From NCBI RefSeq assembly GCF_026151205.1, contig NC_087081.1, forward strand, positions 5,697,246-5,761,245: a stretch of DNA of 64,000 nt, read 5' to 3'. A program made the translations under genes and the position numbers. The stretch is from Bolinopsis microptera (lineage: Eukaryota > Ctenophora > Tentaculata > Lobata > Bolinopsidae). Of the stretch, positions 53,201 through 59,200 are shown piece by piece (the stretch's first letter is position 1; every line of letters starts with the position of its first letter). The notes under the pieces were generated by a model. The model was not told where the DNA came from. It saw only the letters and a list, made by a program, of their open reading frames with translations, and ran no database searches.

Positions 53201-56200
53201 TTCGATCACGGCTTACGAATTGTAATTGGTAATAAAGCTTATTGATTAGAAAAAGCGAGCGACCGATTTCATTCTCGGTATCAATTTGCATTTGCGGACG
53301 GTTATTCAAATTAATATCATTTCCTTTTGTTTGGAAAAGAGAGCGGTACACTCTACCCATGATTATGGGTTTTGGTCAAATATCATCTCTTTTTGATTAT
53401 AATGTCAGGATAATTTACAAAGCCGAAATGTAAACTCATAACTTCATTAATATTTATATTAATAATTAGGAGGTAATTTCATCGATTTCGAAATTTTACC
53501 TGACTGAATATGGCACTTTTTACTCATTCAAGTTGGCATTAAATTCATATATAATTCCATTTAAATATCGCGGGAAAGCAGAATTTATTCGAAATCACGA
53601 ATGAGCAAAATTCTCACCTTTCGCACGTGCAAACTTTGAGCGGACGTAGCGTGCGCATACAATATTGAATCACCGTAAATCTTTGCATAGCAGTATTTTA
53701 TATATAATTTAATAAGCATGCAAAGTTTCAGAAGATTTCATATAGAACTTGGATCACAACGGGACTCCAAAGTTGATAAAAATGGTAAAAACAGCAATTT
53801 TCAGTAATTTTAGCAATTTTCTATCAATTTGGGCGTGTCCCCACGTGTGCAACTTTTCGATTTTCAACTTTAAAACTAGCCTATAACACAATTTAGACCT
53901 TTAGGAAGCACAATCGAGCTCCACAACCCAAGGGATGGCCCAACACCAGAGAATACTAATTCACAACTTTTGTATTTTTATAAAATTATTCTTCAAAAAA
54001 GCACTAACTTCAATAGCGAATATCTTTATGAAGGAGCAAGGTAGGAAAATTTTCCGGTAGATTTTCAGAATGCTTGAACAATTATCTAAGGTGAAAATAT
54101 TCTCAGATTTTGAATAAAATTACTCCTTAATGGTTTAAAATCGATTTGAAAAGTTGTTATTTTGTTAAAAACCAAGTTTTAAAAACACTTAACTTGATGA
54201 CGTCATCAAGTGATGATGATGACGTTAAATTACTTATTAATATAATGTAAACTGGAGTGTAAACGATTATCTTCAAGACCTGTGGTTCGAAATGACTGTA
54301 TCTTTTATACTTTTGAATCTACGGACACTTAAATGTAGGCTATAATTGACTGCAAAAGCGTCTATATATAGTATATATATATACTTCACGACAATCTGTT
54401 GTAAAACAGGGGTTCCAGAAAACCCACTTCCCGATACTCCTGAAACATGAATTTTTTTTTACAGTCGATTTGGACAAGGTCTAGACGCCCTGCAAAGTTT
54501 CATATCTCTAACTCAATTTTAACATGGTTTTTAAGGCACCTGAATATGGCGATTTTGGGTTTTTTACCTAATTTCGTATAACATGCTGGCGCGTATTTTG
54601 CGCAAATTTCTTAAAAACCTCCACATAACTATTTCTTATTCCTGTCATCTTTAACATTGAATTAGAATGTTTTGAACTTAAAAATGCCTGCTGAACTACT
54701 TTCGATGAGTCTTAATGCCTGGAAAACAATAAAGGGGATATACTAGTATAGGGGGTAAATAGTATTGTGAATATAAGGGCGACGGTAATGCTTGCCAGCA
54801 TTGTGATCAATCCGTCGAGACAAAATGCTATATATAATATAATTAGTATTGGACTATTAATTTATTTTATAGATAGTTATCGTACATTGTACAATACTTT
54901 TAACTCAAATTCCCCTTACTTAGCTGGCAAGTGATATCGACAAGATCTCAAAATTGGACCCTGATCAGCTATCTAACGGAGTGGTTAATCAGCTGGCAGC
55001 TGAGATATCCAAGGTACGGGATGTTGTGGTACGGAGGAATGGTATTCCTAGTATTTCGCTGATTAAATGCCCTTATTTAGCTACTTTTATTTAATAGACT
55101 GGCTCTGATAGACTTCTGACAAGTTGAACTTAAAGTGATTTTTGATGAACTTAGAATACTGGTTATATTATTAGTATGTGGCTTCCTCTTCTCTCTGTCT
55201 CGGGGCAGTATCATGTACTAAGTACTTAGGTGAGAATTAGTTATCTAATGAGTCATTAATTAATTGTTTAATTAATTAATTATTTAATAATTGCTTATCT
55301 GTCCAGTTGCTATCAAGTACTGCAGCTCCTGTTACCCCAGAAGAAGGACCAGACAAGCTACTCACTAAACTACTTGACACTGCAATACAGGAGGAAGACG
55401 AGGACTTTCAACATGTCCAGATTATGTGAGAATAGTTTGTAATTTGTTATTTGTTATTTCAACATGTCCAGATTATGTGAGAATAGTTTGTAATTTGTTA
55501 TTTGTAATTTCAACATGTCCAGATTATGTGAGAATAGTTTGTAATTTGTTATTTGTAATTTCAACATGTCCAGATTATGTGAGAATAGTTTGTAATTTGT
55601 TATTTGTAATTTCAACATGTCCAGATTATGTGAGAATAGTTTGTAATTTGTTATTTGTAATTTCAACATGTCCAGATTATGTGAGAATAGTTTGTAATTT
55701 GTTATTTGTGATTTCAACATGTCCAGATTATGTGAGAATAGTTTGTAATTTGTTATTTGTGATTTCAACATGTCCAGATTATGTGAGAATAGTTTGTAAT
55801 TTGTTATTTGTAATTTCAACATGTCCAGATTATGTGAGAATAGTTTGTAATTTGTTATTTGTAATTTCAACATGTCCAGATTATGTGAGAATAGTTTGTA
55901 ATTTGTTATTTGTAATTTCAACATGTCCAGATTATGTGAGAATAGTTTGTAATTTGTTATTTGTAATTTATACATGTCCAGATTATGTGAGTATAGTTTG
56001 TAATTTGTTATTTGTAATTTCAACATGTCCAGATTATGTGAGTATAGTTTGTAATTTGTTATTTGTAATTTCAACATGTCCAGATTATGTGAGAATAGTT
56101 TGTAATTTGTTATTTGTAATTTCAACATGTCCAGATTATGTGAGAATAGTTTGTAATTTGTTATTTGTAATTTCAACATGTCCAGATTATGTGAGAATAG

Positions 56201-59200
56201 TTTGTAATTTGTTATTTGTAATTGCAACATGTCCAGATTATGTGAGAATAGTTTGTAATTTGTTATTTGTAATTGCAACATGTCCAGATTATGTGAGAAT
56301 AGTTTGTAATTTGTTATTTGTAATTTCAACATGTCCAGATTATGTGAGAATAGTTTGTAATTTGTTATTTGTAATTTCAACATGTCCAGATTATGTGAGA
56401 ATAGTTTGTAATTTGTTATTTGTAATTTCTACGTTGTACCTCGTGATTTGAGGTTATTCTTTTGTTATTACTGTTTTGTAAGTTATTATATTTTTTCATT
56501 TTTTACCTATTTTTATTGATAATTTATTAGTGGTTTCCTAATATTTCCTTGTGTTTAAACCCCTCCTCCCCCAGACAAGCTGACAGTTTGTAATCTCTAG
56601 TATAGTAGTAACAGTAAGAATATTTCCTTGTGTTTGAACCCCTCCTCCCCCAGACAAGCTGACAGTTTGTAATCTCTAGTATAGTAGTAACAGTAAGAAT
56701 ATTTCCTTGTGTTTGAACCCCTCCTCCCCCAGACAAGCTGGCAGTTTGTAATCTCTAGTATAGTAGTAACAGTAAGAATATTTCCTTGTGTTTGAACCCC
56801 TCCTCTCCCAGACAAGCTGACAGTTTGTAATCTCTAGTATAGTAGTAACAGTAAGAATATTTCCTTGTGTTTGAACCCCTCCTCCCCCAGACAAGCTGAC
56901 AGTTTGTAATCTCTAGTATAGTAGTAACAGTAAGAATATTTCCTTGTGTTTGAACCCCTCCTCCCCCAGACAAGCTGGCAGTTTGTAATCTCTAGTATAG
57001 TAGTAACAGTAAGAATATTTCCTTGTGTTTGAACCCCTCCTCTCCCAGACAAGCTGACAGTTTGTAATCTCTAGTATAGTAGTAACAGTAAGAATATTTC
57101 CTTGTGTTTGAACCCCTCCTCTCCCAGACAAGCTGACAGTTTGTAATCTCTAGTATAGTAGTAACAGTAAGAATATTTCCTTGTGTTTGAACCCCTCCTC
57201 CCCCAGACAAGCTGGCAGTTTGTAATCTCTAGTATAGTAGTAACAGTAAGAATATTTCCTTGTGTTTGAACCCCTCCTCTCCCAGACAAGCTGACAGTTT
57301 GTAATCTCTAGTATAGTAGTAACAGTAAGAATATTTCCTTGTGTTTGAACCCCTCCTCCCCCAGACAAGCTGGCAGTTTGTAATCTCTAGTATAGTAGTA
57401 ACAGTAAGAATATTTCCTTGTGTTTGAACCCCTCCTCCCCCAGACAAGCTCAACAACAAACAACAGAGGAGGTTAACACTAACGCTGGGTTAAAGTGTTA
57501 CATGTGTGGTTTAGTGTGTCCTGATGAGCGGGCTTTCATTACTCACATGCGCTTCCACCTCTTCAACTACAGGTTAACACTAGCACCATTTTAACTACTG
57601 CAATTTGGAAACTCATCTATATATAAACCTCTGTATATTATAATAAAACCATGATTCTCTATACCGGGTCCCTTGATATACCTCTTCTTTCCCCCGAACG
57701 TTTAGTAAATTGGCTCTTTGTACCGGTTTTTGTTCTATACCGTGCACTTTTCGTTTCCCTTTAAAGGCCTGTTATATATTTAAGTCACTATTGTGACGGT
57801 ACATTATAACTAGAGGTTTTACCGTACACACCCCTGCAGATTTCGTCGATTTCAGGTGCCGTCGGCACCATAAAAATTAAAAGCAAACATAAATTTTTTT
57901 CCCCTAAAATCGAACGCTTTCTGCGCAAAAAATTGACCTCAACAGAAAAAATTAAACATGGCTTCAAATCCAAATTTGAACCAGAGATTTTTCACTTCCT
58001 CTCGATAAACTTAATTTTCAACCCAAAATAAAGTCTCAAAGGGGTAAATTACTCAGGTCAGGATTGTAGGCAATGATTATGCCAAACCATACATTTTTGT
58101 AAATTCATTAAACTTTCAATTTAGCCTAAAACACCCTATTCCGCAAAATTTTTCCGGGGGGCTGCGCCCCCCTCGCCCCCGCCAATGTGGTCCGCCCCTT
58201 ACCAGGACCCCGCTGGGGGCTGCGCCCCCAGACCCCTGCCACAGCTTGCAGCTTCGCTCGCCGACAGCCCCCCCCCCCCAAAGAAAAATCCTGGCTACGT
58301 GCCTGAGCAAAATATAGGTTAAGGGCTTTTCAGATGATTTGGCTCCTCAACAGATACTGACGTACATAACGGTCAATATGTAGTTTAGGTTTACCTTGGG
58401 ATTATTTACACTATGTGTAGAGCGGCTTTCGGAGGGATGACCAAAATCTGGCTTTAATAATATGTAAAATACCCCATACTATAAGGCATAAGCTTTACCT
58501 AACTGACTAATCATATTGTTTACTGATTTTGTTATTAATTGCCTGAGAAATGAACAATAGATCAATCCAATCGCTCCAAATTTGGACTTCTGGTTGGGAG
58601 GCTACAACATGTTTCTTCAAGAAACCTATATAATATTTTTGCTAATAAAACGTTTAATTATTATAATTCAGTTGGCCAATAGACACTATTGGGATTTGGG
58701 AGTTGAGAAACTCTCGGAAAATGGGGTTTAGCTGTAAATCCAATATTAATAATATTAAGTATTATATTAAGTATTATTAGCGCTATTGGACACTGTTCAA
58801 TAGTCTAAATCAAAACACCGAATCACCTGAAAAATAAATCTAATTTGTATTAACCAAGGTCCGATAATCCTAGTTAACGGGTTTGATTGTAATTAGTAAA
58901 ATGCTCAGGTATTCGTGTTACGAGTGTGGGTTTGGGACCAGCTCAATGAATGAACTGTTACTACACAAAGCTGAACAACATGAGGGGGACCTCACTAAAA
59001 TCAGTCCTGAGTTACTTAAAGGTTAGTTTCACTTTCACTTAAAGGTTAAATTCACTTTCACTTTCATTGATACTCAAACTTTAGTTATGCATGAATTTCA
59101 ATCGGTCCTCAAGTTATTTGTATGTTTGTTGCTTGTGATATGCTTGGAAACAGTTTGGACAAGTTTTGTTGAAAGCACGGAAAAGTTTCACGAAGCCTCT

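Follow-up and report, generated by a model that had tools for sequence, protein, structure and literature searches.

Minisatellites that run across intron-exon boundaries are known from lancelets (amphioxus), where they have been called 'mirages'. In the available excerpts of the papers, such arrays are located in Adh3 and in the globin genes BflGb6 and BflGb9, with published unit sizes of 10–160 bp (10–72 bp in Adh3), a duplicated 3' exon boundary in BflGb9, and haplotypes of 6 and 3 units in BflGb6 (PMC3087553). Troponin C and PGBD5 have been added as mirage genes (PMC3902484). The same excerpts describe regular splicing as undisturbed, as judged by the authors' reverse transcription PCR (PMC3087553, PMC3902484). 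In human IFI6 (6-16, G1P3), a minisatellite is described as supplying several splice donors (Turri et al. 1995, as cited in the excerpt of PMC4526556). Excerpts of two further papers deal with intron change via internal tandem repeats and with intron gain via tandem duplication (PMC2812944, PMC4974935). Here we have analysed a window of 64,000 nt (C10:5697246-5761245) from the ctenophore Bolinopsis microptera, in which a zinc-finger gene possesses an intron whose donor and acceptor are both repeated in tandem. We argue that this is probably a case of two separate arrays of the mirage type at the two ends of one intron.

The zinc-finger gene, as modelled, occupies 50253..64000 on the plus strand and shows C2H2 matches in Pfam, which we used for domain families. 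Its exon borders were set by hand from the sequence, and the splice sites are thus predicted ones. The 16 exons in the window join into one open frame of 886 aa, with exon 16 continuing past the window end. Exons 1–5 are placed at 50253-50334, 50460-50535, 50672-51258, 51849-52325 and 52498-52640, exons 6–11 at 52820-52951, 54924-55013, 55307-55425, 57444-57572, 58909-59021 and 59454-59590, and exons 12–16 at 62507-62614, 62901-63022, 63266-63432, 63681-63780 and 63923-64000. Exon 8 (119 nt) ends in phase 2 with GTC CAG ATT AT, and exon 9 (129 nt) holds the start of the first C2H2 finger. The first-pass annotation of this DNA had drawn the same two borders, 55425 and 57444, and our independent model reproduces them, exon 8 being likewise the eighth. 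In an attempt to name more exons, 3 of the 9 open reading frames scanned in the window gave Pfam matches at E 0.01.

Intron 8 (55426-57443) starts within one tandem array and ends within another, both called with Tandem Repeats Finder (TRF) and checked in a unit list. The first array (55406..56429) has 20 full units of 51 bp with 98% matches. In each of them, the final 20 bases of exon 8 recur together with the donor TAT/GTGAGA, except that units 12 and 13 have GTGAGT. The second array (56540..57450, 98% matches) consists of 11 full units of 79 bp and, at its end, an incomplete unit that holds the true acceptor, which agrees with the 12 copies counted in the first pass. Every 79-bp unit includes a polypyrimidine tract, CCCAG and the 7 bases with which exon 9 begins, and CCCAG is retained in 12/12 acceptors of the window. 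A unique linker (56430..56539) separates the two arrays. By eye, the 51-bp and 79-bp units are different sequences with only a 10-mer in common. Apart from the 79-bp units themselves in both gene copies (see below), neither the window nor the upstream stretch contains a match of more than 11 bases to the 37-bp segment of the 79-bp unit that does not derive from exon 9. Matches were searched in the whole assembly (264,652,675 bases, 232 contigs). A weak match (65%) of the 51-bp array on contig C4 has been rejected as an array, since TRF reported there nothing of period at least 10 with at least 3 copies in 10 kb. A third splice border of the gene, the donor of exon 10, also stands in a tandem duplication (59014..59063, plus strand; 23-bp unit, 2.2 copies by TRF), letter-identical in the second gene copy.

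We have enumerated the GT/AG pairs between exon 8 and exon 9 that lie at least 30 nt apart, with productive acceptors allowed no more than 40 nt inside exon 9. Among 21,164 such pairs, only 14 leave the frame open into the first finger. When the count is restricted to the main sites of the units, a single one of the 240 array pairs is productive, namely the outermost donor with the outermost acceptor, and the remaining 239 truncate the protein before the zinc fingers. The outermost donor (GTGAGA, 55426..55431) and the outermost acceptor region (57409..57443, ending CCCCTCCTCCCCCAG) are therefore the putative functional sites. An inner donor keeps the frame, as 51 nt make 17 codons, but leads into ATT ATG TGA, and use of an inner acceptor yields ATA CAA GCT GAC/GGC AGT TTG TAA. 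Both of these stops, and the truncation by all inner array choices, had been foreseen in the first-pass annotation. Its statement that the outermost join is the only open one holds for the 240 array pairs but not for all conceivable sites, the other 13 open pairs needing at least one GT or AG other than the main site of a unit.

Actually, such stops are common in this gene. An in-frame stop is found no more than 51 nt after 13/15 donors (12/14 without intron 8), and within ~79 nt before 11/15 acceptors (10/14 without intron 8). Since nearby in-frame stops are usual here, a duplicated border will mostly truncate when an inner site is used, and truncation by inner sites therefore needs no design. 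Rescue by nested re-splicing has been rejected by reasoning, as early use of donor 1 or of the last acceptor is a dead end. Iterated inner splicing alone would not restore the frame; choice of the outermost pair appears to be required, and exon definition would be its most plausible cause.

The 51-bp array has another match in the assembly, at C10:5664435-5666118, where exons 1–11 of the zinc-finger gene are found again. This second copy is located ~88 kb upstream on the same contig, beyond two assembly gaps of 100 N (window 6917-7016 and L011 3939-4038). It has 33 donor units but a mere two units of 79 bp (the real acceptor and a single decoy), against 20 and 12 in the window, and the 51-bp arrays of the two copies carry different unit variants. 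Edge changes are borne by the first unit of the second copy's 51-bp array and by the first 79-bp unit of both copies, though the variants are few. The linker differs at 2 of 104 aligned sites. Beside these differences, ~1.65 kb of intron 6 (window 53152-54805) is missing from the second copy.

With arrays and unaligned insertions excluded, the two copies show 17 mismatches in 2,079 exon sites and 73 in 3,091 intron sites (Fisher P 1.8e-5). The exon changes comprise 14 silent and 3 replacement ones, together with one in-frame 6-bp length difference in exon 3; 11 further apparent replacement bases in codons 53–57 stem from this length difference and were not counted. Exon 8 is identical at 119/119 sites and exon 9 has one silent difference in 129, which is also the only change in the 379 sites of exons 9–11. 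To judge from these comparisons, the gene is constrained, and so is the part of the protein encoded past the arrays. As exons 9–11 are constrained, this suggests that exon 8 is joined productively to exon 9 at least some of the time. Exons 8 and 9 thus appear to belong to one gene with both ends of the intron amplified, as first proposed; the arrays are different, and coding constraint is seen on both sides of them.

The closest systems known to us are the lancelet mirages. As far as the excerpts go, mirage units span the border, many carry AG/GT signals, and they occur at a 5' or a 3' boundary; here one end of each array reaches into the exon, and the splice site lies within the array. The unit sizes, 51 and 79 bp, are those of minisatellites. 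The unit number of mirages is described as unstable between alleles, and here it is 20 versus 33 and 12 versus 2 between the copies, which are presumably alleles. For the edge units of mirages, an escape from homogenisation has been described; the edge variants of the present arrays are few. The present case differs in that both boundaries of one intron are affected, with 20–33 and 2–12 units, and in its ctenophore host. PGBD5, with repeats at the splice sites of neighbouring exons in the part of the report available, comes near to it. IFI6 shares minisatellite units that offer splice donors, but two downstream units are described as used there, giving isoforms, while here any inner donor would bring in TGA and no coding isoform is predicted from inner units. 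We know of no acceptor array in IFI6. Intron gain or change by tandem duplication, as treated in the excerpts, likewise involves a duplication at or near an exon border that alters gene structure; in our locus, donor and acceptor lie in two arrays with different units, so intron 8 was not made by one tandem duplication. In a partial survey of the literature, to which the original Adh paper did not belong and which is no proof of absence, we came across no intron with an array at each of its ends. The double location, the larger copy numbers and the non-chordate host are possibly new.

Based on the above analyses, we consider it likely that intron 8 has acquired two separate minisatellites of the mirage type, which are tolerated and change fast, and that the two gene copies are haplotypes. 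Short tandem duplications would by chance have spanned the exon 8/intron 8 and the intron 8/exon 9 borders, and would then have grown, presumably via slippage or unequal exchange. A tandem duplication crossing a border should keep one intact exon with its site at the outer edge, which may account for the tolerance. Exon definition, acting on the 119-nt exon 8 and the 129-nt exon 9, would as a rule direct splicing to the outermost donor and the outermost acceptor, and the inner sites would be mostly ignored or give truncated transcripts.

The window is rich in tandem arrays. Arrays of period at least 10 with at least 3 copies cover 14.9% of it, versus 0.5–13.0% in eight stretches of 10 kb on other contigs. 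Long arrays (period at least 20, at least 8 copies) make up 10.7% of the window and are present in 2/8 of the 10-kb stretches elsewhere. When the arrays of period at least 10 were shifted circularly round the gene, 5.0 of the 30 borders were expected within arrays, and 3 are observed (P of at least 3 = 0.87). The result is similar with all TRF arrays (3 borders versus 5.7 expected) and with those of period at least 20 and at least 4 copies (2 versus 3.8); the test covers a single gene in an array-rich window picked because it had been flagged. We further compared 52 array units, those of both zinc-finger gene copies included, with shuffled sequences. No enrichment of donor or acceptor motifs was found (mean P 0.57 and 0.56; P no more than 0.1 in 6 and 3 units), as scored with weight matrices of approximate frequencies, not fitted to B. 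microptera.

Besides, 30 helicase loci (of 87 matches) were inspected by eye. No array clearly spanned a border in them, although this is a weak test with few true borders, as many of the frames are long. Thirteen of these loci are not on the plus strand, and the strand-corrected run lists 11 array rows at or near open frames. In L040 an array ends ~30 nt before a likely acceptor, and in L047 one starts ~5 nt into an intron; in L057 an array ends just before AG, which is seen only with the locus taken as plus strand. In L049 (1-684), a 30-bp unit repeated 23 times, whose consensus holds CAG/GTTAGT, is located ~800 bp before a helicase exon. Overall, arrays that span borders do occur, yet the data do not show them to be favoured; two of them at one intron are uncommon but require no special mechanism. 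On the question raised in the first-pass annotation for the rest of the genome, whether exon borders overlap arrays beyond chance, this gene shows no excess and the helicase loci no clear case.

Several observations weigh against the proposed explanation by mirages and haplotypes. Where donors stand in tandem, splicing often prefers the one closest to the intron, and such a preference would lead to truncation in this gene. Arrays across exon borders may be uncommon in general, with none clear in the 30 helicase loci and long arrays in only 2/8 of the stretches, so that two at one intron would not be routine. The GTGAG of the donor is invariant in 53/53 units of the two copies (0/265 variant cells, versus 26/2,438 for the remaining unit positions). 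Inner donors may therefore be under weak selection, although the units are not independent of one another. Finally, one part of the upstream copy is inverted (window 21100-24207 against C10:5590183-5593260, 98%), which speaks somewhat against a plain haplotype and makes a segmental duplication possible.

The last point bears on the relation of the two copies. They could be recent paralogs rather than haplotypes, the arrays then differing between genes, which would still be compatible with mirages; we regard this as unlikely, though both copies are located on one contig ~88 kb apart and the inversion agrees with it. At the upstream copy, homology stops 23 bp before a 100-N gap, as expected of a haplotig. 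Exons 8–11 match two places in the assembly, while exons 12–16 match one place only. No second copy was found for the first 4 kb past the window either, as should be the case if the second haplotype runs out where its contig does. The exons of the upstream copy keep their constraint, and homology extends far upstream. There, it is interrupted at a dispersed repeat and then resumes in the same order, and window 40000-44800 aligns colinearly with C10:5636595-5641737 at 92–98%; the two copies of the gene are colinear as well. The two copies are therefore most likely two haplotypes of one diploid animal. The available part of the assembly report describes one diploid adult with haplotigs purged, and annotation with the help of RNA-seq and Iso-Seq (PMC10232365). 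The segment C10:5586179-5668914 holds a near-identical second copy of several stretches of the window up to 60427 (only the pieces named here were compared), ends at a contig gap, and is probably a haplotype left unpurged. The locus would then be a heterozygous double variable number tandem repeat (VNTR), with 33 x 2 versus 20 x 12 sites. Beside the second copy stands a dispersed element (~C10:5642932-5657300) that is missing from the window copy and has 46 match rows genome-wide, mostly 93–98% alike. Its end segment recurs at C10:5642932, and we read it as an element with ends like long terminal repeats.

A different possibility is that the inner sites serve a purpose: their use would cut a certain proportion of transcripts before the fingers, and the unit number would set the dose. 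The first-pass annotation had raised such a selected, splicing-controlled off-switch. In its favour, the 239 other array pairs all truncate, GTGAG never varies in the 53 units, and CCCAG is kept in every acceptor of the window. On the other hand, close stops are ordinary in this gene, so the truncation has small weight as evidence for a switch. The number of acceptors differs between the copies, 12 versus 2, and the full 9-nt donor motif shows no difference in variability from the rest of the units (3/477 versus 23/2,226 variant cells). Furthermore, the phenomenon is already published as mirages, which in the excerpts seen leave regular splicing undisturbed (PMC3087553, PMC3902484). We thus find an off-switch improbable, and it is unneeded for what is seen. 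With a similarly low chance, the double-ended splice-site VNTR might act as a fast-mutating heritable dial, in which the decoy number sets the productive fraction and the haplotypes with 33 x 2 and 20 x 12 sites differ in output within one animal.

An assembly artefact, with repeats collapsed or over-extended, is very unlikely. Long-read consensus assemblies may miscount units, and the count of 12 rests on one contig; yet an error is argued against because the second copy has a 51-bp array in the corresponding position, with differing unit variants. The least probable explanation, that a mechanism specifically copies splice junctions into tandem arrays, as suggested in the first pass, could point to the 3/30 internal borders of the gene in tandem duplications and to the recurrence of similar arrays in lancelets, but it is hardly credible against a number of borders below the shifted expectation, units without motif enrichment, and helicase loci that, in a weak test, lack a clear border-spanning array.

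Several other features of the window have been recorded. At 28163-30230, a 22-bp unit is repeated 95 times and is open in all three plus-strand frames; read on the minus strand, the array ends ~30 nt before a likely acceptor. At 25616-25878, the 11-bp unit AAGGTATGTTA is repeated 24 times, and most of its units are donor-like, with no known exon next to the array. Two very similar frames on the minus strand (44947-45522 and 46081-46821) share a single matching place in the upstream copy, and the first of them has a Pfam match to GNAT acetyltransferases. A 2,176-aa open frame at 12738-19268 (minus strand) looks by eye like a candidate replicase-helicase of the Helitron type.

This locus, where near-identical splice sites are repeated 20–33 times at one end of an intron and 2–12 times at the other, is in effect an experiment of nature on the spliceosome's choice between equal sites. 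Moreover, its host is a ctenophore, and mirages, as we read these arrays, are thus probably not peculiar to lancelets.

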